Virus record (IMG/VR): IMGVR_UViG_3300004807_000172
Span: 1-20,428 of that record
DNA from: a virus
Reading direction: 5' to 3' (one strand)
Length of the DNA: 20,428 bases
Made by a program: the position numbers and the translations under genes. The notes below the pieces were generated by a model that searched no databases, was not told the DNA's origin, and was given only the letters and a program-made list of their open reading frames with translations. Positions 1 through 10,312 of this stretch are shown piece after piece; the first letter of the stretch is position 1; the number at the start of each line of letters is the position of its first letter.

Positions 1-987
1 ATTGACCAAAGAAATGCTGGTGCTAGTGTTACCCCCGGAACTGGTGGAACCTACACTTTAGATAGATGGCAATATGTAAATAATCAAGCGTCAAAGTTTT
101 CAATACAACAAAACGCTGGTTCTGTAACACCTCCGATTGGTTTTAATAACTATATTGGTTTTACTTCTTTATCGGCTTATTCTTCAGCTTCTTCAGATTA
201 TTTTGTTTTAACTCAATCTGTTGAAGGTTTTAACTGGTCAGATTTAGGATGGGGAACATCAAATGCCAAAACTGTTACTTTGTCTTTTCAGGTTTATAGT
301 TCATTGACTGGTACTTTTGGCGGTTCTTTTGTAAATTCAGCAACCAATAGAAGCTACCCATTTACATACACAATTTCTTCAGCTAATACATGGACATCAA
401 TTAGTGTAACTGTTGCTGGCGATACTGCTGGCACTTGGGTCGGTGCAAATAACGGCATTGGTGTTCGTGTTTATTTTGATTTAGGAAGTGGGTCTACATT
501 TAGAGGAACTGCTGGCTCTTGGTCTTCAAATTACTATCTTGCCCCAACTGGTGCAGTTTCCGTAGTAGGAACAAACGGAGCAACCTTCTACATCACCGGC
601 GTTCAACTCGAAGTTGGCAGCTCAGCAACTGGTTTTGAATATCGTCAGTATCAGCAAGAGTTGGCATTGTGTCAGCGTTATTATATTAAATATCCTCAAG
701 GAAGTATTGTTGGTAATGGTTTATCAGATGGCGGAACAAATATGCGAGTTGTAAACGCAATAACTCCAGTAACTATGAGAACAGCCCCCTCTCTTAATTG
801 GAATGCAATGGTAGTCTATTCTGGTAATTTAACAAATTATGGATTTACTGGAGTGGGTGGCACAGTATTAGGCCCAAGTAGCGTTAAATTTGATGGCGTC
901 ACATCTTCAAGTCCAGCAGCTAATACAGCATTGTGTTTAATTGCTGACGCCTCTGGCGCTTATTTTGCAATGTCTGCGGAGTTATAA
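1..987 (+). CDS. Tail fibre / receptor-binding protein, C-terminal part (5' end outside window)
   Basis: The reading frame is open from base 1 to the TAA at 985-987, so the gene begins upstream; a TTG at 280 is internal, not the start. The 328 visible residues are rich in Ser, Thr, Gly, Asn and aromatics and look all-beta. The first ~200 (including a TYTLDRWQY stretch) resemble the carbohydrate-binding-module-like sandwich common in phage tail fibres. It closes with FYITGVQLEVGSSATGFEYR and ELALCQRYY (bases ~588-690), a block I recognise from many tail fibre C-terminal regions. A variable, AT-rich tip of ~100 residues follows. Inferred role: recognition of a surface glycan or protein on the host. 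The next three genes follow within a few bases, consistent with a fibre-plus-chaperone cassette. The fold is inferred from sequence style; the receptor is unknown. Confidence 0.75.
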   Translation: MDQRNAGASVTPGTGGTYTLDRWQYVNNQASKFSIQQNAGSVTPPIGFNNYIGFTSLSAYSSASSDYFVLTQSVEGFNWSDLGWGTSNAKTVTLSFQVYSSLTGTFGGSFVNSATNRSYPFTYTISSANTWTSISVTVAGDTAGTWVGANNGIGVRVYFDLGSGSTFRGTAGSWSSNYYLAPTGAVSVVGTNGATFYITGVQLEVGSSATGFEYRQYQQELALCQRYYIKYPQGSIVGNGLSDGGTNMRVVNAITPVTMRTAPSLNWNAMVVYSGNLTNYGFTGVGGTVLGPSSVKFDGVTSSSPAANTALCLIADASGAYFAMSAEL

Positions 988-988
988 A

Positions 989-1147
989 ATGTATAAATTA
1001 TTTAATATAGATAATAAAACAACAACTATTATAAGATTAGAAGATAATACTTTTATTCCGCTTAACCCTGACAACACAGACTACCAAGCCTACCTCAAAT
1101 GGCTCGAAGCCGGCAACACACCCCTACCAGCAGACACAGGAGCATAA
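989..1147 (+). CDS. Small tail-fibre-assembly-like protein
   Basis: This 52-residue protein starts at ATG 989, one base after the fibre stop, with a GGAG ribosome site at 978-981 and a 7-base spacer; a possible upstream start at 941 would lie inside the fibre gene and lacks such a site. The C-terminal half reads IPLNPDNTDYQAYLKWLEAG followed by NTPLPAD. This is a signature I know from short proteins next to phage tail fibres and from the N-terminal parts of tail fibre assembly chaperones (XkdW-like or tfa-like). A role in fibre folding or attachment is therefore inferred from motif and position. The base composition changes sharply near 1062: the first half is extremely AT-rich and the second about half GC. 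This suggests a recombination joint inside the gene. Confidence 0.65.
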   Translation: MYKLFNIDNKTTTIIRLEDNTFIPLNPDNTDYQAYLKWLEAGNTPLPADTGA

Positions 1148-1150
1148 TCA

Positions 1151-1675
1151 ATGAGCTTAATTTTATCCGGTAACTCCGGCTCGATGACGGTAGATAGTAC
1201 CGCAGGGGTGACATTCCCCAACGGCACTAATCCTCAAGCTGCACCTAGTAAAGTGTTGCAAGTTATTCAAACAACATTAAATACTGTTTTCAGTACAACA
1301 TCGTCTACTGCGGTAGATACTGGTATTACAGCTTCCATAACACCGTTGTTTTCTACAAGTAAAATACTTGTTATGATGTCTATTCCTTATCAATTCTCTG
1401 GCGGAAGTGATAACGGAGGAACTTTTTTAATTGTAAGAAATTCGACAACTATTTGGAATGGCCAAAGTGCAACTTTATACGCCTATAATAGTAATGGGGC
1501 AAATATTTACAATAGTGGAGTTGCAGCTTTACAATATTTAGATAGCCCAGCAACAACAAGCTCAACGACTTATAAATTGCAAATTTACACCAGACAAAGC
1601 CCCGGTGTATCAACAGTTCAAGTTGCATCTAATAACGCACCTGCAACAATAACTATTATGGAGATAGCACAATGA
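1151..1675 (+). CDS. Tail-fibre-like / adhesin-like virion protein
   Basis: This is a 174-residue protein with ATG at 1151 and a strong AGGAG site at 1138-1142. It opens with a short conserved-looking module, MSLILSGNSGSMTVDSTAG then VTFPNGTNPQAAPSKVLQVI, typical of phage tail appendage proteins. It continues as a Ser/Thr/Asn-rich beta domain (SITPLFSTSKILVMMSIPYQ, FLIVRNSTTIWNGQS) and ends in ITIMEIAQ. Proteins with this head-plus-sandwich pattern are frequent in fibre regions of aquatic phages and are presumed receptor-binding or decoration proteins. No catalytic motif is visible. Its last four bases overlap the start of the next gene (ATGA at 1672-1675). The middle section is more AT-rich than its ends, as in the upstream fibre gene. 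Function is inferred from composition and position. Confidence 0.6.
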   Translation: MSLILSGNSGSMTVDSTAGVTFPNGTNPQAAPSKVLQVIQTTLNTVFSTTSSTAVDTGITASITPLFSTSKILVMMSIPYQFSGGSDNGGTFLIVRNSTTIWNGQSATLYAYNSNGANIYNSGVAALQYLDSPATTSSTTYKLQIYTRQSPGVSTVQVASNNAPATITIMEIAQ

Positions 1676-1920
1676 TCAATTTACATGACGCTATTCGTGC
1701 ACTAAATCCATTAATTATTACGATCCGTGGCGATGTAGCCTATGATGCAAACGAGCAAGAAGTTGCTTATGACAAAGCTGCCGCAGAAGCCAAACTAACC
1801 GAACTCCAAGCAGCGCAAGCACAAGCCGAACAAGCCGCAGCCACAGCTAAACAATCTGCTCTAACCAAACTCGCCGCATTGGGCTTAACCCAAGCAGAAA
1901 TCAACGCACTCATTGGTTAA
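1672..1920 (+). CDS. Small Ala/Gln-rich protein of the tail fibre cassette, function unknown
   Basis: This is an 82-residue protein starting in an ATGA overlap with the preceding gene, with GGAG at 1660-1663. The N-terminal part (residues 1-35) includes ITIRGDVAYDANEQEVAYD. Residues 35-70 form a probable coiled coil very rich in Ala, Gln, Glu and Lys. The C terminus, KLAALGLTQAEINALIG, matches a short ending I recognise in small proteins downstream of phage tail fibres. A helical partner or chaperone of the fibre is plausible from position and shape, but no family assignment is certain. GC content rises in the coiled-coil half compared with the first half. Confidence 0.55.
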   Translation: MINLHDAIRALNPLIITIRGDVAYDANEQEVAYDKAAAEAKLTELQAAQAQAEQAAATAKQSALTKLAALGLTQAEINALIG

Positions 1921-1924
1921 TTAA

Positions 1925-2173
1925 ATGAACGAAATGGATCCAATTAAGACGGCAAGGGAGCTTGCCACCCATGCTAATGATATTGAGCATTTACAAGCCG
2001 ACATGGACAAGATGATTCAGGAGATGAAAGAAATCAAGGAATGCATCCAAGCCATCCAGAAGACCTTAGCTGAGGCTCATGGCGGTTGGAGACTGCTCCT
2101 CGGTATTGGTGGCGCTGCGGCTCTGTTAGGTGCCATTTTGGCCAATCTGTTCCAAGGCTTTCTGAACAAGTGA
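1925..2173 (+). CDS. XhlA-like coiled-coil membrane protein (putative holin accessory)
   Basis: This 82-residue protein has a charged, coiled-coil N-terminal region (about 10-50, containing LQADMDKMIQEMKEIKECIQ) and one C-terminal membrane segment (about 55-78, LLLGIGGAAALLGAILANLF). That layout is characteristic of haemolysin XhlA-type phage proteins, which sit beside holins and endolysins and are thought to help permeabilise the inner membrane. The start could be ATG 1925 or ATG 1934; neither has a strong ribosome site. The stop overlaps the GTG start of the next gene (GTGA, 2170-2173). Being first in the lysis cassette supports a lysis role. The family assignment rests on topology rather than on a diagnostic motif. 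Confidence 0.55.
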   Translation: MNEMDPIKTARELATHANDIEHLQADMDKMIQEMKEIKECIQAIQKTLAEAHGGWRLLLGIGGAAALLGAILANLFQGFLNK

Positions 2174-2394
2174 GCCAAATACTAAAACAGCTCCTCACCG
2201 GCAAAGACTGTCAAACTTATGACATCGGTCGGGTGACTTGGCTAATTAGTTTATTGGCCGTGATTGCGCTTGCTTTTTATGAGGTAATGCACAGCACCAT
2301 CAGCATTCGTGAACTGGCTGAGTCATTAGGCATTGTCTCTGCAGCTGGCGGCGCCAGTGTGGCCATGAAGGGCAAAACGGAACCGGGGGACTGA
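2170..2394 (+). CDS. Putative holin-like single-membrane-segment protein
   Basis: I place the start at GTG 2170, which overlaps the previous stop in a GTGA junction. The same frame is open from 2086, but that extension would lie inside the preceding coding sequence. The resulting 74-residue protein begins MSQILKQLLTGKDCQTYDIG, then has a membrane segment at about 22-39 (VTWLISLLAVIALAFYEVM). It ends with a small-residue-rich segment (LGIVSAAGGASVAMKGK). The LLTGKDxxTYDxGR opening followed by one or two membrane helices recurs in short proteins in phage lysis regions, where they are often called holins or left unnamed. It directly precedes the spanin genes (TGATG overlap). A holin or antiholin role is inferred; it is not the only holin candidate here. 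Confidence 0.5.
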   Translation: MSQILKQLLTGKDCQTYDIGRVTWLISLLAVIALAFYEVMHSTISIRELAESLGIVSAAGGASVAMKGKTEPGD

Positions 2395-2804
2395 TGTTTC
2401 CACTATCCATACTAACTTATGCAAAAATTGGATTTTGTGCTTTATGTTTATGCGGGGCTGGCTATCTTGGCTACTCTTTGGAAGCTGCTCGCTTTGATCG
2501 TTATAAAGCTGAGCAACTGGCTCTTACTCAAAAAGCCGAACAAAAACATCAAGCAGCCGCCGACGAAATAAGGAAAGAAAAAGATGCGCAAATCGCTTCT
2601 ATCAATAACAGCCTCGCTGATGCTCTTGTGCAGCTGCGTAGCCGTCCCAGTCGCGCCCAAGCCTCCAGCAATGGACAAGGCGGAACTGGGCTGTCCCTTT
2701 CTGCAGAGGATGCAACTTTTCTTGAGCGGGAAGCTGCCAGAGCAGACATCTTGCGCTCAGCCCTAGACGCTTGCTATAAACAATACGATTCGTTAAACAA
2801 ATGA
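2394..2804 (+). CDS. Rz: Inner-membrane spanin (Rz-like)
   Basis: This is a 136-residue protein with one N-terminal membrane helix (about 7-28, LTYAKIGFCALCLCGAGYLG) followed by a charged, helical periplasmic region. The coiled-coil section is at ~35-80 and includes KAEQKHQAAADEIRKEKDAQ. This is the topology of lambda Rz, the inner-membrane component that pairs with an outer-membrane lipoprotein to fuse the two membranes in the last step of lysis. The strongest support is the complete Rz1-like lipoprotein gene nested inside it in the +1 frame at 2584-2766. It overlaps the previous stop by one base (TGATG at 2392-2396) and the next start by four (ATGA at 2801-2804). Rz proteins diverge fast, so identification is by architecture and context rather than sequence. 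Confidence 0.8.
   Translation: MFPLSILTYAKIGFCALCLCGAGYLGYSLEAARFDRYKAEQLALTQKAEQKHQAAADEIRKEKDAQIASINNSLADALVQLRSRPSRAQASSNGQGGTGLSLSAEDATFLEREAARADILRSALDACYKQYDSLNK
2570..2574 (+). promoter_or_regulatory. Ribosome binding site for the nested Rz1 gene
   Basis: AAGGA lies nine bases upstream of ATG 2584, inside the Rz coding sequence. It supports translation of the embedded Rz1 frame from its own start. Confidence 0.6.
2584..2766 (+). CDS. Rz1: Outer-membrane spanin lipoprotein (Rz1-like), fully nested in Rz
   Basis: This 60-residue frame lies wholly inside the Rz gene, shifted by +1. It has a classic short lipoprotein signal: a basic N terminus (MRK), a hydrophobic stretch (SLLSITASLMLL), then a lipobox-like LCSC whose Cys18 would be lipidated. 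The mature part begins VAVPVAPKPP, the proline-rich feature typical of Rz1. An AAGGA site sits nine bases before the ATG. Rz1 anchors in the outer membrane and binds the periplasmic tip of Rz to complete lysis. Embedding of Rz1 within Rz is the known lambda arrangement. Start, lipobox and proline content together make this a convincing gene despite its overlap. The -2 Cys in the lipobox is unusual but the core L-x-S-C fits. Confidence 0.8.
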   Translation: MRKSLLSITASLMLLCSCVAVPVAPKPPAMDKAELGCPFLQRMQLFLSGKLPEQTSCAQP

Positions 2805-3019
2805 AAAAAGAAGAACTGTCCGCTTATGTCACCCTTATGGCTACTGCCACGCTTACTGTTATCCTTCTTAGTATGGTTGGTGCTTTGCTTGTGGGTTTAT
2901 TTAATCCTGCAGTAGACAATACCGAGATATTTAAAGCAATTACTCCAGCCTTCCAGACTATCGTCGGGGGCTTTATTGGCCTAATCACTGGCATTAAGAT
3001 TGGCGAAAACCAAGAGTAG
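2801..3019 (+). CDS. Putative holin with two membrane segments
   Basis: This 72-residue protein starts in an ATGA overlap with the Rz stop. It is mostly membrane: helix 1 at about 9-35 (TLMATATLTVILLSMVGALL), a short polar loop (NPAVDNTEIFK), helix 2 at about 46-67 (TPAFQTIVGGFIGLITGIKI) and a charged tail. Small proteins with two such helices in lysis cassettes are typically class II holins, which form the inner-membrane lesion and set lysis timing. It is the last gene before the endolysin, which begins 42 bases downstream. With the single-helix protein at 2170 and the XhlA-like protein at 1925, it is one of three candidate inner-membrane effectors; which is the true holin cannot be decided from sequence. 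Confidence 0.55.
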   Translation: MKKEELSAYVTLMATATLTVILLSMVGALLVGLFNPAVDNTEIFKAITPAFQTIVGGFIGLITGIKIGENQE

Positions 3020-3030
3020 TACCCCAATTT

Positions 3031-3045
3031 ACGCTATACTAGCGT
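3031..3045. promoter_or_regulatory. Perfect inverted repeat upstream of the endolysin (possible promoter/operator or leader hairpin)
   Basis: ACGCTA-TAC-TAGCGT is a perfect 6-bp inverted repeat with a 3-base centre, lying 16 bases before the endolysin ATG. It contains TATACT (3035-3040), five of six matches to a bacterial -10 box, but I see no convincing -35 element at the right distance. It could be a weak promoter, an operator-like site or a small hairpin in the endolysin leader. It lies in one of only three sizeable gaps between genes in the window. Confidence 0.35.
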
Positions 3046-3061
3046 AGAGTAAGGAGCAAAA

Positions 3062-3583
3062 ATGAATAAAAAGATAGTTGTAGTACTGTTGTGGGTTTTA
3101 GGCATATTTGCCGCAATTCACTTCACAGACCGTTATACCCAGATTGAAGAAAACATTATGGCAATTGCTAAATCAACCCTAGACTTCATTACCAAAGAAG
3201 AAGGCGCCCGTAACAAGGCCTATAAGGATTCTAAAGGCCTTTGGACTATTGGTGTTGGCCACCTCATCAAAGCGGACGAGCAGTACCTTCTTAATGCGAC
3301 CCTGACAAACGAGCAGGTAGAAGACCTGCTTAAAAGCGATTTAAAGTGGTGTAGCGAGGCCGTAGAGAGCTCGGTGAAGGTACCCCTTCAACAGAACCAA
3401 TTTGACGCTCTATACAGCCTTTGCTTCAATATTGGAGAGACTAACTTCCGTAAGTCTACCGTTGTTAAGAAAATTAACGCAAATGATATGCGGGGGGCAG
3501 CAGACGCTATCCTCATGTGGAATAAGCCAGATGTGCTTGTTAACCGCAGAAAACGCGAAAGAGCATTATTTTTAGGGGCGTAA
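3062..3583 (+). CDS. Endolysin: GH24 lysozyme with N-terminal signal-anchor (SAR-type) helix
   Basis: This is a 173-residue muramidase of the T4 lysozyme/P21 R type that cleaves the glycan strands of peptidoglycan. The catalytic signature E-(8)-D-(5)-T is visible as Glu47, Asp56 and Thr62 in EEGARNKAYKD and LWTIGVGH. The family's downstream helices follow (QNQFDALYSLCFNIG, and VNRRKRERALF at the end). The N terminus carries a hydrophobic segment at 5-21 (IVVVLLWVLGIFAAIHF) after a short basic start, as in signal-anchor-release endolysins. These reach the periplasm through Sec and are activated when the holin or pinholin collapses the membrane potential. The start at 3062 is supported by AAGGAG at 3051-3056. 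An internal ATG at Met33 (base 3158) would give a soluble form. A terminator overlaps the stop codon. Confidence 0.92.
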   Translation: MNKKIVVVLLWVLGIFAAIHFTDRYTQIEENIMAIAKSTLDFITKEEGARNKAYKDSKGLWTIGVGHLIKADEQYLLNATLTNEQVEDLLKSDLKWCSEAVESSVKVPLQQNQFDALYSLCFNIGETNFRKSTVVKKINANDMRGAADAILMWNKPDVLVNRRKRERALFLGA

Positions 3584-3597
3584 ACCCCCCATTTTTT
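3574..3597 (+). terminator. Rho-independent-type terminator after the endolysin
   Basis: A GGGG (3575-3578) faces a run of six C (3585-3590), giving a short GC stem across the TAA stop, followed by A and six T (3592-3597). The stem is only four pairs, so it is weaker than the similar element at 10315. Its position at the end of the lysis cassette and the T tract support the call. Confidence 0.6.
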
Positions 3598-3614
3598 GCA
3601 TTAGTATAAGTAGG
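3593..3614 (+). promoter_or_regulatory. Repeated intergenic motif, copy 1 (putative late promoter)
   Basis: The 22 bases running from the terminator T tract through GCATTAGTATAAGTAGG match copy 2 at 10334-10355 at 20 of 22 positions; the differences are A/G and G/A. Both copies sit directly after a terminator and before a gene with its own ribosome site. There is no recognisable sigma-70 -35 box at normal spacing. A promoter for a phage-encoded or phage-modified polymerase, or a processing site, is inferred from position and conservation. Confidence 0.5.
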
Positions 3615-3654
3615 ACTGATCATCCTTTTTTAATCAATTACTCGAGGAATTGCC

Positions 3655-4770
3655 ATGGAAGGCTTTAAAAAGATAGTTAAAATGAAGACAGGCGGCGGCG
3701 TGTCTAAGGCTGTAGCTAAGTGCTACGGCGGCAAGATGAAAAAAGGCGGCGAAGTAGATGCTGCTGACATCAAGCAAGATAAAGCAATTGTTAAAAAAGC
3801 CTTTGCTATGCACGATAAACAAGAGCATGGCGGTGAAAAGACTGATCTTTCCAAACTCAAGCGTGGTGGTCGTTCTAAAAAAGAATGCGGAACTGTACGT
3901 AAATACAAGACCGGTGGCTCTGTAACCAACGTTTACGAAGCTAAGAAATCTTCTGGTGACTTAGATAACATCCGCAAAACCAAGTTAATCAAACCCGGTA
4001 AAGCAGATGCCCCATCTAAAGCAGCTGTAAAAAGCAAAGATGTTGGTGCAAAAACCACTGGTGCATCTGGTCACAAAGACCCGTACATTAAGAGCAAAGA
4101 ATCTGGTAAAACAGCTGCAGCCCCATCTGGTGCTAAAGGTGGACCAAACAAATATAAGTGCGGCGGCAAAGTAAAGAAAATGGCTGGTGGTAAACAAGTA
4201 GGTGCTTCAGCAGCACAACAAAAATACTACGATAAAAACATGGCTGAAGGCGACAAAAAAGCAGCAAAAGCTGATTACGAAGCCTTTGGTTCACGTGGTG
4301 ATGCAGCTCGTAAGGGTATGTCAGAAGGTCGTATGGACGCGCTTGGTAATGCGTATAAGAAGGGTGGCAAAGCAAAAGTAAAAAAGTTTGCTGACGGCGG
4401 CTATACTGGTGACGACCCTATTGTTAAGTATCGTATGGGTATGACAGACGCCGCTGGTAATCCAACAACACCAACTCCAGCTGCTGCCCCAGCTCCTACA
4501 GCACCTAATCCAGCTATGATTGAAGACGAAAGCGATCGTGGCAATGTAAGCCCAGCTGCTGCAGCTTTCAACAAAGATATTCCTGGCGCAGGTCCTGTTG
4601 CTACTGCAATGCGTCCTACTCCAAGAGTACGTCGTGTTACAGCAATGAAAAAACCTGGCATGATTGATAACCTTTTAGCTAAGCCAAGCGTTAAAAACTT
4701 CCTAAACAACTTTAACCAGTCTGCTTTAGTAGGTGCTAAAAAAGGCGGCAAAATTAAAGGTAAATGCTAA
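3655..4770 (+). CDS. Lys/Gly-rich basic protein with repeated GGK motifs, function unknown
   Basis: This is a 371-residue, very basic, low-complexity protein with GAGGA seven bases before ATG 3655. A motif of the form GGK-x-K recurs: CYGGKMKKGG (23-32), CGGKVKKMAGG (169-179), KKGGKAKVKKFADGG (near 236-250) and KKGGKIKGKC at the very C terminus. Related Gly-Gly turns occur near 70 and 87. Four cysteines (23, 78, 169, 371) lie in or beside these basic patches. Residues ~40-72 form a small helical module (DKAIVKKAFAMHDKQEHGGE). A Pro/Ala-rich linker occupies ~275-290. No enzyme motif is visible. Similar patchwork basic proteins occur in aquatic phage structural regions. DNA binding, or packaging as a virion protein, is a guess from charge and location. 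It is the first gene after the terminator. Confidence 0.6.
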   Translation: MEGFKKIVKMKTGGGVSKAVAKCYGGKMKKGGEVDAADIKQDKAIVKKAFAMHDKQEHGGEKTDLSKLKRGGRSKKECGTVRKYKTGGSVTNVYEAKKSSGDLDNIRKTKLIKPGKADAPSKAAVKSKDVGAKTTGASGHKDPYIKSKESGKTAAAPSGAKGGPNKYKCGGKVKKMAGGKQVGASAAQQKYYDKNMAEGDKKAAKADYEAFGSRGDAARKGMSEGRMDALGNAYKKGGKAKVKKFADGGYTGDDPIVKYRMGMTDAAGNPTTPTPAAAPAPTAPNPAMIEDESDRGNVSPAAAAFNKDIPGAGPVATAMRPTPRVRRVTAMKKPGMIDNLLAKPSVKNFLNNFNQSALVGAKKGGKIKGKC

Positions 4771-4771
4771 T

Positions 4772-4942
4772 ATGCCAAGTAAATCACAAGCACAAGAGCG
4801 CTTGATGGCTGCTGCGGCACACAACCCTAAGTTTGCTAAAAAGGTTGGTGTTCCTACTAAAGTTGCCAAAGAGTTTAACAAGGCCGACACAGGCGTAAAA
4901 CTTAAATCATTACCAAAGCGAGTTTCTGGTAGGGGGCGCTAA
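4772..4942 (+). CDS. Small basic conserved phage protein, function unknown
   Basis: I choose ATG 4772, one base after the previous stop, giving 56 residues that begin MPSKSQAQERLMAAAAHNPK. The frame is open from 4733, but that would overlap the preceding gene. The pattern S-x-x-Q-x-R-L-M-A-A-A-A-H-N-P followed by AKKVGVPTKVAKEFNKAD is one I recognise from short hypothetical proteins near phage structural genes. It is rich in Lys and Arg and ends SGRGR. It may bind nucleic acid or a virion component; nothing in the sequence decides. The next gene's ATG abuts its stop at 4943, with an AGGGGG site inside this gene's end. Confidence 0.65.
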   Translation: MPSKSQAQERLMAAAAHNPKFAKKVGVPTKVAKEFNKADTGVKLKSLPKRVSGRGR

Positions 4943-6013
4943 ATGGCGTACAGCAACACAACTGGTCAAACAACAATCAATGTTGACCAGTTAATTTCAT
5001 ACGCGTTTCGTGACTCCGGCAAAGCTGCTGAGGAAATGACACCTGAGCTAGTTAACGCTGGCAAGCAGGCGCTATTCTACAATTTACAAAACCTTTCTAA
5101 TCTTGGTGTAAACCTTTGGTTATTGGATAACATTCTGTTGGGCGCTCAAACCGACCAACAGATTTTAACGCTTCCAAAAACAACCATTGACATCCGTGAA
5201 GCTAACTGGGTTTATGTTCAAAACATTGCCCCAAACGCAGCTCTTCCAGCGGATAATGCCGGCGCTCCTAACTTATTTACTCAGTCCTTACAAAGCGGCC
5301 ACGCCACTTCTACGCTAGCTGAAAACTGGTTTGGCGCTGCATACAATCCAGAACAACGAGTATTTTACGTTGGTTTTAACGCATACTCCCCAGGTACAAC
5401 CACCACATACAATCTTATTTATGAGACCAGCTATGATGGTGTTACTTGGACCAACCAGCAAGTTCTCCCATCTACCACATTAAGTGATTATCAATGGGCT
5501 TACTTTAATATCAATATTACACAGAATTATGGATTCTATCGCCTGCGTAACGCAAGCACAACATCCACGTTCTCCTTACGTCAGATAGTATTTTCACAGT
5601 CACAACAAGTCATTCCTTTGGCTCGTTTAAACCGTGATGATTACTGGAATCTGCCTAATAAGCAATTCCCGTCTGTTCGTTCTTTGCAATATTGGTACGA
5701 TCGTCAGATCGAACCACAGATGTATCTTTGGCCTGTACCAAACAATGATTTCCAAATGTTTCAGCTTGTTATTGAAAAACAAATGGAAGATGTTGGTTCA
5801 TTAACAAATCAAATCTACGTACCAGATCGCTGGATTAACTCAGTGCAGGCCACATTGTCGCACCGTTTATCCCTACAGATTCCTGGTGTGGATGCAAACC
5901 GTATTCAGTATTTAGAAGGCTTGGCAGAGAAATACTTCATGCAAGCTAACAATGAAGAGCGTGATAAGTCACCTATTTACTTCCAACCTAACATAAGCTA
6001 CTACACAAGATGA
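4943..6013 (+). CDS. Neck/tail adaptor-like structural protein with inserted beta domain
   Basis: This is a 356-residue protein starting directly after the previous stop. The N-terminal ~90 residues are helical (VDQLISYAFRDSGKAAEEMT, KQALFYNLQNLSNLGVNLWL), as in adaptor proteins that dock under the portal. Residues ~110-215 look like a jelly-roll-type insertion (YNLIYETSYDGVTWTNQQ, YGFYRLRNASTTSTFSLRQI). The C-terminal part has DDYWNLPNKQFPSVRSLQYW and PQMYLWPVPNND, a pattern I associate with structural proteins encoded just before the hub protein in podoviruses. It then ends in helices. The role, a ring between portal and tail nozzle, is inferred from position beside a second adaptor and the gp10-like hub. 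It shares four bases (ATGA) with the next gene. Confidence 0.6.
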   Translation: MAYSNTTGQTTINVDQLISYAFRDSGKAAEEMTPELVNAGKQALFYNLQNLSNLGVNLWLLDNILLGAQTDQQILTLPKTTIDIREANWVYVQNIAPNAALPADNAGAPNLFTQSLQSGHATSTLAENWFGAAYNPEQRVFYVGFNAYSPGTTTTYNLIYETSYDGVTWTNQQVLPSTTLSDYQWAYFNINITQNYGFYRLRNASTTSTFSLRQIVFSQSQQVIPLARLNRDDYWNLPNKQFPSVRSLQYWYDRQIEPQMYLWPVPNNDFQMFQLVIEKQMEDVGSLTNQIYVPDRWINSVQATLSHRLSLQIPGVDANRIQYLEGLAEKYFMQANNEERDKSPIYFQPNISYYTR

Positions 6014-6624
6014 GCGTAATAATGACTTACGATTCGCTGGTGTTGAACATCCAGCAATACATGGAGCGCGATGATGCTGATTTCGTTGCTCAGATTCCTA
6101 ACCTTATTGCGTTGGCAGAATCATCTATTGCTGCAGAACTCAAGACATACCTCCAGCTTATCGTAGTAGAAACCAATCTGGCAACTAACCAGACTGTGCT
6201 TAATAAGCCAGCTCGTTGGCGTAAAACTGTTTCTATGAAAGTCAATGGCAAACCAGTGTTGCTTCGTAGTCAAGATTATGTAGCTCAGTATCTTTCAGAA
6301 TCTAGCAACGCCCAGCCACAGTACTATTCAGAGTACGATTATAATAACTGGAATTTTGCGCCATCTCCAGACACAAGTTATCCAGTGGAAATTATTTATT
6401 ATGCTGAAGTGCAACCATTGGATGCAGTAAACCAACAGAATTTGTGGACAGCTATTGCACCACAAGCTATGTTATATGGTGCGCTGTTACAAGCTCAAGG
6501 ATATTTAAAAGCATTAGATAAACTGCCTGTTTGGAAAGGCTATTATACAGATGCTATTGCAGCACTTAAGAAAGAAGACAATTCTCGCCGTGTGGATCGT
6601 AACACTTCGGTACAGGAACCCTAA
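6010..6624 (+). CDS. Phage adaptor (head-to-tail connector) protein
   Basis: This is a 204-residue protein. Early residues form helices (YDSLVLNIQQYMERDDADFV, AQIPNLIALAESSIAAELKT). A beta section follows (RWRKTVSMKVNGKPVLLRSQ, NWNFAPSP, YPVEIIYYAEVQPL), then a closing helical region (APQAMLYGALLQAQGYLKAL). This order matches the adaptor family known from podoviruses such as SU10, whose ring joins the portal to the tail nozzle. Start ATG 6010 overlaps the previous stop (ATGA); ATG 6022 is an alternative. No strong ribosome site is seen, consistent with translational coupling. The assignment is fairly good by pattern and supported by the adjacent hub gene. Confidence 0.7.
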   Translation: MSVIMTYDSLVLNIQQYMERDDADFVAQIPNLIALAESSIAAELKTYLQLIVVETNLATNQTVLNKPARWRKTVSMKVNGKPVLLRSQDYVAQYLSESSNAQPQYYSEYDYNNWNFAPSPDTSYPVEIIYYAEVQPLDAVNQQNLWTAIAPQAMLYGALLQAQGYLKALDKLPVWKGYYTDAIAALKKEDNSRRVDRNTSVQEP

Positions 6625-6627
6625 TAT

Positions 6628-7896
6628 ATGACTACTCCAGTTTACGTATCCCCCTTTACAGGTACAGTAGTAACTGCTACTGATGTATCTTACTATGCTC
6701 TTGCATTTAGTTCAAATACGCAGCTTTTCTGGCCTTCTACAGTTAACAATAGCCAAACACCAGCGGCCCGTATTATTGATTGCGTTGCTTCTACTTCTGG
6801 CCTTGTTATTAAATTACCTCAAGGCAATCAAGGTACATTGGGTGCGGATATTCTATTCCGTAACTTAGGTGCGCAACCATTTACTATTACAGATTATAAT
6901 GGCGGCGGTTCTTTTACTGTTCCGGTTGGTATTTCTAAATATGTATATCTTGTTGATAATACAACTGTAGCAGGTGTTTGGAACAACGTAACATTTGCAG
7001 CTGGTACATCTTATGCTGATGCAGCGTCATTAGCAGGTTCTGGTTTAACAACTGTATCTGGTAAATTAGCAACAACACAAAATCCTATTGATTTAACAAC
7101 TAGCCCTGTTATTAACGATAACAGCCGTGCAGCTACCTTTGTTTGGAACTCCGGCGTTGGTACGTTTACACTTCCAGCAATTTCTAGTTTATCAACAGGT
7201 TGGTATATTGGTTTCCGTAATAACGGAACAGGCTCATTAACAATTAACCCAACATCACCAAATACAATAAATGGCTTTACAACCATTACAGCAAATCCTG
7301 GTGATTCAGGGTTTATTATGCTGGATTCAAACAATGGTGGTTTTATTACCGTTGGTTTAGCTCCAGCTAATAACGTTACATTTACAGCAGCTACATACGA
7401 TGTTGATACTATTCCTGGTAATACATTTAGCTTAACTTCGTTTGCTCCAATCATTCAAACCTATATTGCTCAGACTACCACTCGTACAGCAACACTAGCA
7501 GTAACATTACCAGCGATTACCCAGATTTATATTTTAGTTAATAATACTAATCAAACTGGCTATAACATTACATTCCAAAACCAAGGCAGCTCACAGCCAC
7601 CATTGGTGTTATCTGCAGGTAACGTATTAACTGTTCTTAGCGATGGTTTAAATTTATTCCCATTAACAACCGCATCCACCGGTTTGTTCTATGCAGCAAA
7701 CGGTACTGCTGCCCTTCCTTCGTATTCCTTTAACAATGATACAACTACAGGCATGTACCTTGTCGGTTCTTCTATTCTTGGTTTAACAGCTAACGGCCAT
7801 GAAATTATTCAAATGGATAACTCAAACTTATCTGTACCTCTTGTAACAGTAAACGCAACTCTTAATGCCCAATTAATTCCTGGTGGGACGTTCTAA
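6628..7896 (+). CDS. Tail-fibre-like protein built from three beta repeats
   Basis: This is a 422-residue Thr/Asn/Gly-rich protein preceded by AGGA. It contains three diverged copies of a beta unit around 'h-x-LP ... h-x-F-x-N-x-G ... I'. The LP landmarks are at residues 63-64, 182-183 and 294-295, and the matching turns are ILFRNLGAQPFTI, IGFRNNGTGSLTI and ITFQNQGSSQP. The C terminus has PSYSFNNDTTTGMY then GLTANGHEIIQMD. This is the widespread phage fibre motif (PxYxFxxDxxTGMY...xxG) found near tail fibre ends. Being encoded between the adaptor and the gp10-like hub suggests a fibre or appendage attached at the neck or nozzle. No enzymatic motif is visible. Its stop abuts the next start. 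Confidence 0.65.
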   Translation: MTTPVYVSPFTGTVVTATDVSYYALAFSSNTQLFWPSTVNNSQTPAARIIDCVASTSGLVIKLPQGNQGTLGADILFRNLGAQPFTITDYNGGGSFTVPVGISKYVYLVDNTTVAGVWNNVTFAAGTSYADAASLAGSGLTTVSGKLATTQNPIDLTTSPVINDNSRAATFVWNSGVGTFTLPAISSLSTGWYIGFRNNGTGSLTINPTSPNTINGFTTITANPGDSGFIMLDSNNGGFITVGLAPANNVTFTAATYDVDTIPGNTFSLTSFAPIIQTYIAQTTTRTATLAVTLPAITQIYILVNNTNQTGYNITFQNQGSSQPPLVLSAGNVLTVLSDGLNLFPLTTASTGLFYAANGTAALPSYSFNNDTTTGMYLVGSSILGLTANGHEIIQMDNSNLSVPLVTVNATLNAQLIPGGTF

Positions 7897-10062
7897 ATGG
7901 CGGCTGATAATCAGCAACAGGATACCTCGCAATATACTTCGATTTACTCACTGGCTATTCCAGCGGGTATCAAGCGCGATGGTACTCAGTTTCAAAACGA
8001 CCAATACACCGATGGTGTGTGGTGTCGTTTTCAGCGTGGTGATCCTAAAAAGATAGGAGGCTACCGCACACTGTTTCAAAGTCTTGTTGGTATTTATCGC
8101 GGAATGATAGCTCAACCATTTAATGGTGTTAACTACATTTTTGCTGGTAACTACCAAGAGCTAGACGTATTTACAACTGGTACTACATACGCAACTGGTA
8201 GTGGCCCATTTAAAGTTAACATACTTCCAGGAACAACGTATGTAACTTTGGTATCTAATACAACGTCTTCTTTTGTTGTAGCCGGCAACCAAACAACTTT
8301 ATTTCCTACTGGTACTAAAGTTATTTTTACCCAAACTGGTACACCAACAGTGTATACAGTTAGTACATCTACATTCTCTACACCAAATACTACAGTAAAC
8401 GTTACTGGCGGATCTATTTCCGGTACACCAACCAAAGTATGGATTGACAATACTCCCGTGTTTACTAGTGATGTAGATCTTCAAACAGACCCATCAATTG
8501 GTAACTATCGTGTTACTTGGCAGTTTGATTCAATCTTTAGCCCATCCGGCGGCAATCTTCAAGTATTAGCACATCCAGGATACAACTTAGAAAATATTGA
8601 TAACGGTGTTGTAAGTCAAGTTCTTATTGGAAACATTACGCCAGACTCAACAGATACTTGGAACTTTACTGGCTTATCTGATAGCGCAGGTCAAAACCCA
8701 ACATATAAACCAATTAGTGTTGACGGCGGCGTTTGTGTTCTGTATCCATTTATATTTGTTTACGGTTCTAGTGGCTTTATTGCCAATAATAATGTAAGCA
8801 CTACATACGCATCTCAAAGCCCCTATGATTGGAATGGTACATTTGCCAATCAGGTAAACGTAGCCTCATCAAAGATTGTTAAGGGTATGCCAATGCGTGG
8901 TGGTACTAACTCACCATCGGGTTTATTTTGGGCCACTGACTCCCTTATTCGTGCTTCTTTTAACTCCCAAGCAACTGGAATTTATTGGACGTACGATATT
9001 ATTTCTAGCCAAATTTCTATCATGTCTTCCAACGCTGTTGTGGAGATGGACGGAATTTATTTCTGGATGGGCGTTGATCGTTTCTATCTATATAACGGTT
9101 CTGTACAAGTATTACCAAACGATAAAAACGTAAACTGGTTGTTTAACAACATTAACTACGAACAACGCCAAAAAGTGTGGGCTACTAAGATTCCACGCTA
9201 TAATGAGATTTGGTTCTTTTACCCTCGTGGTACCGCAACAGAATGTACAGATGCTATTATTTATAACGTAAAAGACAAGCTCTGGTATGATGCTGGTCAA
9301 GCAACAGGTGCTCAACGTTCTTGTGGATATACTACAGAAATTTTTCCAACACCTATTTGGGCTGATTGGAATTATAATCCAATTTTTAGTAGAACATTTA
9401 ATGTTATTGCACACCCAGCTAGTTTACCCGCTCCAAACGCTAATCAATTTTATTTAGCTGGCGATCAAACAATTGGATTTAGCCCGGGTGACTCAGTATC
9501 ATTTAGCAACACAAACAGTTTTAATAAAACTTATGTTATTACAAATAGTACCAATATTTATAATACAACTGTAGTTCCACCGGGTGTTACTCGGATAACT
9601 GTTGCTGAAAACTTTTCCCCTAGTCCAACCGTTGGGGAATCAGTATACAGCGTTGCAGGTGGGTTTAATATTTGGCAACATGAATATGGTCAAAATGAAA
9701 TTGCACTAAATGGTGAATTTGCTATTTACTCTAGCATTACTACCAGCGACATTGGCTGGTTAACAGGTACGCCAAGCCAAGATGGTTTAGTTGGGGTTAA
9801 CCGACGTATGCACTTGCGTCGTGTTGAGCCAAACTTTTTACAATCCGGCACAATGTCTATGAGCATTTTAGGTCGTAAGTTTGCTGGCAGTCCAATGCAA
9901 GAAATTGCGGGACCATATTACTTTAACCAAGACACTGGTAAAATTGATTTACGTGTAGAATACCGTTTAGTTCGTTTAAAATTTGAATCTAATGTAATTG
10001 ACGGTAATTTTGAAATGGGTCGCAATTTAATTACAGCAGAGTTTGGCGATGAGCGCCCTTAA
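7897..10062 (+). CDS. P22 gp10-like hub / tail nozzle (packaged-DNA stabilisation) protein
   Basis: This is a 721-residue protein starting on the base after the previous stop. Near the N terminus, DGVWCRFQRGDPKKIGGY (39-56) matches the 'D-x-x-R-F-x-x-G-x-x-x-K-I-G-G' pattern typical of P22 gp10-type proteins, which plug the channel below the adaptor and form the nozzle. The middle is propeller-like (AVVEMDGIYFWMGVDRFYLY, WATKIPRYNEIWFFYPRG). Two related beta insertions interrupt it at about 124-172 and 516-565. The C-terminal ~120 residues (RRMHLRRVEPNFLQSG, YRLVRLKFES) also fit this family. In P22 the hub follows the gp4 adaptor gene; here two adaptor-like genes precede it, separated by a fibre-like gene. 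Confidence 0.75.
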   Translation: MAADNQQQDTSQYTSIYSLAIPAGIKRDGTQFQNDQYTDGVWCRFQRGDPKKIGGYRTLFQSLVGIYRGMIAQPFNGVNYIFAGNYQELDVFTTGTTYATGSGPFKVNILPGTTYVTLVSNTTSSFVVAGNQTTLFPTGTKVIFTQTGTPTVYTVSTSTFSTPNTTVNVTGGSISGTPTKVWIDNTPVFTSDVDLQTDPSIGNYRVTWQFDSIFSPSGGNLQVLAHPGYNLENIDNGVVSQVLIGNITPDSTDTWNFTGLSDSAGQNPTYKPISVDGGVCVLYPFIFVYGSSGFIANNNVSTTYASQSPYDWNGTFANQVNVASSKIVKGMPMRGGTNSPSGLFWATDSLIRASFNSQATGIYWTYDIISSQISIMSSNAVVEMDGIYFWMGVDRFYLYNGSVQVLPNDKNVNWLFNNINYEQRQKVWATKIPRYNEIWFFYPRGTATECTDAIIYNVKDKLWYDAGQATGAQRSCGYTTEIFPTPIWADWNYNPIFSRTFNVIAHPASLPAPNANQFYLAGDQTIGFSPGDSVSFSNTNSFNKTYVITNSTNIYNTTVVPPGVTRITVAENFSPSPTVGESVYSVAGGFNIWQHEYGQNEIALNGEFAIYSSITTSDIGWLTGTPSQDGLVGVNRRMHLRRVEPNFLQSGTMSMSILGRKFAGSPMQEIAGPYYFNQDTGKIDLRVEYRLVRLKFESNVIDGNFEMGRNLITAEFGDERP

Positions 10063-10312
10063 AAACTTTCAGCAGTTTTTTCCATGTTTGCCGGACTATA
10101 TGACATGGGAAGACTGGAATGGCAATTTGGCTATTTATTACGGCCAAAAGAATATTGAATTTTCCCCGGAAGAAGATTGGAAATACGGCGCCATGAATAT
10201 TGTTTTATCCGAGACTTTTGGCACATATCCTGTGCCGTCTCCCAGCACCTATGATAATTGGCAGGATTGGGCCAAAGATTTTACTGAAATAATTAACGGT
10301 CCAAGTCGTTGA
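10049..10312 (+). CDS. Small Trp/Tyr-rich protein after the hub gene, function unknown
   Basis: I choose ATG 10049 (87 residues, MSALKNFQQFFPCLPDYMTW), which overlaps the hub gene's 3' end by 14 bases; a TTG two codons earlier is less likely. The protein is acidic and unusually rich in Trp, Tyr, Phe and Pro (TWEDWNGNLAIYYGQ, FSPEEDWKYGA, YDNWQDWAKDF). No membrane segment or catalytic motif is visible. Coupling to the hub gene and the terminator right after its stop make it the last gene of the neck/tail unit. A minor virion or assembly protein is plausible but unproven. Confidence 0.6.
   Translation: MSALKNFQQFFPCLPDYMTWEDWNGNLAIYYGQKNIEFSPEEDWKYGAMNIVLSETFGTYPVPSPSTYDNWQDWAKDFTEIINGPSR

Follow-up and report, generated by a model that had tools for sequence, protein, structure and literature searches.

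Which hosts a phage can infect depends largely on its fibre tips, and to our knowledge few phages have shown how a new tip can be fitted while the fibre stays intact. A 1998 study of T-even-type adhesins reportedly described hypervariable tip segments lying between short conserved motifs and exchanged by recombination at those motifs. Published tail-fibre chaperones combine a variable fibre-binding N-terminal beta domain with a conserved C-terminal helical domain (PMC9608196). In the Alteromonas phages A5 and V22, the hairpin strands of the modelled chaperone form a joint sheet with the fibre head, and a fibre with its cognate chaperone is common to distantly related phages (PMC10579305). Metaviromic islands, in which host-recognition genes vary among otherwise near-identical environmental phages, have likewise led to recombination being proposed (PMC3909814, PMC7468147).

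We analysed a whole 20.4-kb virus record (20,428 bases; the window), which begins within a tail fibre gene that is followed by a gene for a 52-residue protein (Table 1). It is probable, in our judgement, that positions 541-1270 are a plug-in site for receptor-binding tips, where a cassette consisting of the fibre tip (670-984) and the N-terminal half of the small gene (989-1054) sits between DNA-conserved anchors; recombination would act at the anchors, the small protein would be a chaperone, and cell binding would change with the cassette. The left anchor would be the end of the CBM-like module of the fibre (541-684), and the right anchor would comprise the small-gene IP..NTDYQAYLKW segment and the start of the next fibre gene (1055-1270).

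Architecture of the fibre gene and its small partner

The jelly roll in the structure model of the fibre aligns with CBM4-2 (2y6j) with a Z of 12.2 over 151 residues (rmsd 2.9). Beyond the jelly roll, the model continues through a short helix (217-225) into a separate C-terminal beta tip. No close relative of the window's own tip was found, the best match being 50% over 47 residues. Relatives of the 52-residue protein are encoded in 294 viral stretches from a first query and in at least 584 confirmed stretches from a second, and 190 distinct fibre/small-gene units were built from 337 sequences. Bacterial genomes with small-gene relatives (L342-L345) belong to Nitrosomonadales, Cupriavidus, Pandoraea and Polynucleobacter, a hint of Burkholderiales-type hosts.

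Table 1 Features of the fibre region in window coordinates.
Feature	Position	Strand	Description
Fibre gene	5' end cut by contig end (window's left end)	+	phrog_4492 tail fiber; 328 residues visible
CBM4-like jelly-roll module of fibre	1..669	+	residues ~1-205; model pLDDT 88.5
Left anchor (..GTNGATFYITGVQLEVGSSATGFEYRQYQQELALCQRYY)	541..684	+	GC-richer; conserved protein and synonymous codons; ends at left border of cassette
Exchangeable fibre tip, CQRYY ... SAEL	670..984	+	AT-richer, hypervariable; median pairwise identity 0.23 (190 units)
GCGGAGTTATAAAATG	976..991	+	final codons of fibre also serve as ribosome-binding site of small gene (GGAG, 978-981)
52-residue small gene	989..1147	+	likely a one-domain fibre-binding chaperone module; model pLDDT 90
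Variable N-half of small gene	989..1054	+	AT-rich; moves with fibre tip
Right anchor, conserved C-half (IPLNPDNTDYQAYLKWLEAGNTPLPADTGA)	1055..1144	+	DNA-conserved core is codons 1055-1090; GC step at 1058
Start of 174-residue fibre-like gene (MSLILSGNSGSMTVDS..)	1151..1270	+	GC-richer; part of right flank; protein 86-95% identical in close relatives
Second variable tip (174-residue gene)	1271..1672	+	34-45% protein identity to close relatives
82-residue small gene behind second fibre	1672..1920	+	exchangeable front half, conserved back half

The small gene opens (ATG, 989) one base past the fibre stop, and in 174 of the 190 units its homologues start between -1 and 3 nt past that stop, a position typical of chaperone genes. 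Nearly all fibres (187/190) terminate in EL. At the fibre end, Ala is encoded by GCG in 131/172 units as compared to 9% of other fibre Ala codons, and Glu by GAG in 157/172 units as compared to 31% of other fibre Glu codons; GGAG stands at ribosome-binding distance upstream of the small gene in 153/172 units. The conserved fibre C-terminus (A/S)EL, in the window (976-991) and in homologous units, is thus encoded such that its GCGGAG supplies the ribosome-binding site of the next gene, and this second role may be a reason for the conserved ending. A ribosome-binding site placed within fibre codons suggests that the two genes are likely joined at the level of translation.

The model of the 52-residue protein (pLDDT 90) contains three strands (2-7, 10-16 and 21-24) and a helix (30-40), after which the chain stops, so that the C-terminal helical assembly domain of chaperones is absent. 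The family matches phrog_20370 and phrog_34019, both of unknown function, and a Pfam/NCBIfam search with 70 members gave no match beyond chance hits. A fold search returned only weak, unrelated chemokine-like matches (Z 3.8 or less), which were taken as chance, and listed neither TfaMu nor Pam3 gp25; a sequence search of solved structures with the fibre, the 52-residue protein and a long homologue gave no match. This long homologue, a 123-residue protein, lies directly behind the fibre in Pseudomonas phage Kaagvere. Its first half belongs to the 52-residue family, and its second half matches tail-fiber-assembly profiles with E of 1.5e-4 to 5e-4 (phrog_4628, 1.5e-4) and Phage_tail_APC with an E of 0.027, below the cut-off. 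It is carried by 25 Pseudomonas isolates, five of which were compared and are 95-97% identical throughout the region, and thus uninformative on swapping. Most likely, the 52-residue protein corresponds to the fibre-binding half of a tail-fibre-assembly chaperone in free-standing form; we do not class it as a full Tfa/TAC, Phage_tail_APC or DUF4376-type member because it lacks the assembly domain.

The 174-residue gene downstream repeats the pattern of a conserved N-terminal block and a variable tip; this tip is 45% identical to that of L171, where it sits on an unrelated N-terminus. The 82-residue gene that follows is GC-richer in its back half (0.529 over 1780-1917). Against L023, its front half has no match and its back half is 81% identical, with homology resuming only at 1789. 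L023 itself carries two consecutive fibre/small-gene units with different tips (123-2710), so phages can stack cassettes. L148 matches the window over 1924-2173 (91%) and then not before 3146, and the small gene at 1924-2173 may likewise move as a unit. In L097, a close relative, identity is 87-88% over most of 2394-10162 and 79% over 2167-2373, with no matching DNA left of 2167, so that its fibre region is entirely different. Further downstream, a 136-residue frame with a hydrophobic start (2394-2801) overlaps a frame with a lipoprotein-like start (2584-2766; MRKSLLSITASLMLLCSC). Lying next to the endolysin (3062-3583), the two frames resemble an inner and an outer spanin in nested arrangement, and L023 has the same overlap of spanin-like frames.

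Base composition and codon conservation around the joint

The original prediction was drawn from base composition, and its hand counts are borne out: exact counting gives a GC of 16.7% (0.167) for 989-1060 and 52.3% (0.523) for 1062-1147. The step was scanned with adjacent windows of 72 and 86 bases at every position of the 20,428 bases, and the joint in the small gene, said to be the sharpest switch, does give the largest value of all (0.445 at 1058). Steps reached at most 0.371 in 100 order-2 Markov simulations. The two further shifts that had been pointed out are equally present: 541-650 has a GC of 0.50 as compared to 0.376 for 1-540 and 0.401 for 651-987, and 1151-1250 has 0.50 as compared to 0.358 for 1251-1675. 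Across the joint, GC3 rises from 0.08 (989-1060) to 0.54. From amino-acid content alone, at the codon usage of the window, GC values of 0.261 and 0.442 are predicted for the two sides, and synonymous codon choice deviates with z values of -3.0 and +3.5. Amino-acid composition and synonymous codon choice each account for approximately half of the contrast in the 52-residue gene.

The contrast recurs throughout the family. The N-half is AT-richer than the C-half in 71 of 72 deduplicated homologous units, and tips are AT-richer than anchors in 89% of the 72, in keeping with the proposed pattern of GC-rich conserved blocks and AT-rich tips. The GC of tip, N-half, C-half and anchor each tracks that of its own locus (r 0.66-0.75; 72 units). 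Since the step is present in 71/72 homologues and the segments follow the GC of their own genome, it is a trait of the family and not the scar of one event. We had considered GC as a sign of foreign origin, and rejected it because tips and anchors both follow their own genome.

The same data bear on a reading in which the switch records that tips were acquired from donors whose base composition differed. Tips do use fewer GC-ending codons than their own locus predicts (0.223 vs. 0.344; lower in 96% of units), which speaks for such donors. Donor composition is nevertheless an unlikely explanation, given that every segment follows its own locus, that the step occurs in nearly every unit and that amino-acid content accounts for about half of the window's contrast. 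With nearly every homologue showing the contrast and both sides following the genome, the GC contrast alone is weak evidence of exchange. The GC step at 1058 marks the right edge of the cassette only indirectly, and the case for exchange rests on homology breaks and on codon-level conservation of the anchors rather than on GC.

Synonymous codons are fixed in both anchors and not in the tip or the N-half. In the left anchor, fixation reaches 0.5-1.3 bits at many codons, up to CQRY. In the C-half, GCC has a frequency of 0.82 (expected 0.14), TAC 0.88 (0.40), AAC 0.88 (0.45) and GAC 0.85-0.87 (0.40), with fixation relaxing past codon 11; no codon fixation is seen at the well conserved Asp (86% of units) that lies four codons upstream of IP. 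This letter-level conservation explains why GC-ending codons are in excess in the C-half (0.504 vs. 0.369 expected), and the synonymous half of the GC contrast arises because the anchors keep their codons. No RNA structure was found in the right anchor (z 0.40). Codon fixation of this kind fits DNA-level selection and recent sharing through recombination alike. A tentative extension, which we regard as possible but somewhat doubtful, is that the anchors are DNA kept or homogenised by exchange itself: a plug of ~36 bases inside a coding gene (core AACACAGACTACCAAGCC, 1073-1090) and a matching left plug would allow unrelated phages to exchange tip-plus-chaperone cassettes drawn from a shared pool, the chaperone gene being divided so that only its tip-specific half travels.

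Homology breaks and reassortment of tips

In DNA comparisons with the window, L002 matches over 1-683 (74%), 1050-1270 (88%) and 1630-2173 (84%), and L023 over 1-684 (71%), 1072-1374 (85%) and 1789-2804 (81%). Homology to relatives breaks at 683/684, 1050-1072, 1270-1374 and 1630-1789. Breakpoints had been proposed at about 650, 1062 and 1250; a break does occur at each of the three edges, with the left one shifted to ~684, that in the small gene refined to the IP codons (1055-1060) and that in the next gene variable between 1270 and 1374 depending on the relative. In the 190 units, the borders of homology fall on the CQRYY codons (670-684) and on the Ile-Pro codons (1055-1060). These alignments delimit the cassette to approximately 670-1060 of the window, with its right edge at the GC step (1058).

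Median pairwise identity in the 190 units is 0.66 for the fibre anchor protein, 0.23 for the tip, 0.38 for the N-half and 0.77 for the C-half; tip identities are saturated at background, which makes correlating whole identity matrices uninformative, and individual pairs are compared here. Tip identity over all pairs is nearly bimodal, with almost all at background and 13 pairs at 0.6 or above. Relatives with like flanks carry unrelated tips. Tips are at background in 16 of 19 pairs with matching right flanks (mean 0.243, against 0.234 overall) and in 23 of 26 pairs in which both anchors are at least 85% identical in DNA. L230 and L014, for example, agree closely on both sides of the cassette: identity is 99.1% over 231 bp on its 5' side and 97.9% over 3,092 bp from a point 8 bp ahead of the IP codons. 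Between these stretches the fibre end and N-half are replaced. The converse is also found: L243 and L332 share a tip (98%) and N-half (88%), whereas identity is 0.65 in anchor DNA, 0.71 in C-half DNA and 0.20 in downstream DNA. Aligned on the IP codons, 16 same-right-flank pairs rise there from 0.28-0.58 to 0.86-0.99 identity. Pairs sharing tip and N-half hold 0.82-0.97 to about IP+27 and then drop towards background, and same-left-anchor pairs aligned on CQRYY fall from 0.91-0.97 before it to 0.36 after.

Among the 10 informative pairs with shared tips (at least 0.6) and different downstream DNA, some of which are interdependent (L201, L211 and L237 make up a trio), the N-half is at least 0.7 identical in 8. 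That level is reached in 43 of 17,955 pairs as background, and the link between tip and N-half was matched in 0 of 5000 permutations. The N-half goes with the fibre tip, and the exchanged unit is therefore tip plus N-half; in two pairs (L210/L314 and L198/L289) tip and N-half have parted, so that the boundary between the genes can also serve as a split point. Halves of the small gene that always co-vary, which would have spoken against the original prediction, were not found: the N-half and C-half have different partners in many pairs, and the predicted exchange is supported.

Could the tips and the N-half simply evolve very fast under diversifying selection between constrained anchors, with no exchange at all? 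Scattered framework residues kept in tips (e.g. MRTAP and SAEL) point to one fold, and a spread to ~23% identity could be divergence. Fast evolution is quite improbable, however, in view of near-identical tips on unrelated flanks (L243/L332, L201/L237 and L249/L020) and of tips at random background between near-identical flanks, values in between being almost absent.

Most loci are metagenome contigs, and short conserved anchors can mislead assemblers into joining unrelated phages. Such artefacts are a highly improbable source of the pattern, as many contigs agree and shared tips from different samples differ in DNA (91.4% over 573 bp for the L243/L332 tip). A swap of this kind is also present in complete genomes of isolates on one host. 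In the Synechococcus MW02 phages RB11-B and RN05-S, 92% identity extends to a position within a fibre gene; past it the two carry a different fibre end and a different small gene (122 vs. 60 residues), and then similarity returns. This makes assembly chimeras unlikely as a general cause. This isolate pair swaps the whole small gene, and breakpoints inside the small gene come nearly all from metagenome contigs. Programmed variation within one phage is barely credible: hypervariable fibre ends beside a conserved stretch resemble such systems, but a reverse transcriptase (RVT_1), as for a diversity-generating retroelement, is found in 0 of 12 related virus records (which may be fragments), tips differ over their whole length and in length rather than only at A positions, and 1-3100 contains no inverted repeats of 14 bases or more, as for an invertible segment.

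Homology breaks, reassortment, the joint movement of tip and N-half, the codon conservation of the anchors and the ribosome-binding site in the last fibre codons can all be read from the aligned sequences. Under the plug-in model, cassettes would be exchanged during co-infection by homologous or homology-assisted recombination at the anchors; an Erf recombinase was not found in 12 related records. The 52-residue protein would act as a tail-fibre-assembly chaperone of one domain, its variable hairpin fitting the matching tip and its conserved half doing a general job, and a cassette swap would change which cells the phage can bind, and hence its host range.

Comparison with described exchange systems

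This small exchange frame is common to hundreds of environmental phages; its edges can be placed at codon resolution, and it includes the matching half of a helper gene together with its ribosome-binding site. It offers a concrete criterion by which receptor-binding tips can be identified in metagenomes, and a case in which joint exchange of fibre and chaperone can be tested. As in the exchange reported for T-even-type adhesins, a hypervariable segment lies between short conserved motifs, and natural mosaics have their borders at those motifs. The proteins and phages are different, and in the present case a second gene contains the right motif, with the result that the tip takes half of a helper gene along.

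The small gene resembles those of Pam3 (gp24/gp25) and phage Mu (Tfa) in its position directly behind the fibre and in its variable N-terminal beta part and conserved C-terminal part, and the Pam3 N-domain (residues 1-55) is approximately the size of the whole 52-residue protein (PMC9608196). In contrast to these chaperones, the 52-residue protein has no C-terminal helical trimerisation domain, and the fold search matched neither of them. Whole modules are shared in A5 and V22, whereas the unit described here is a tip plus half of a small gene, bounded by codon-level anchors (PMC10579305). Metaviromic islands are described at the scale of genes or domains, whereas at this locus the breakpoints, the DNA-level anchors and the linked half of the small gene are resolved.
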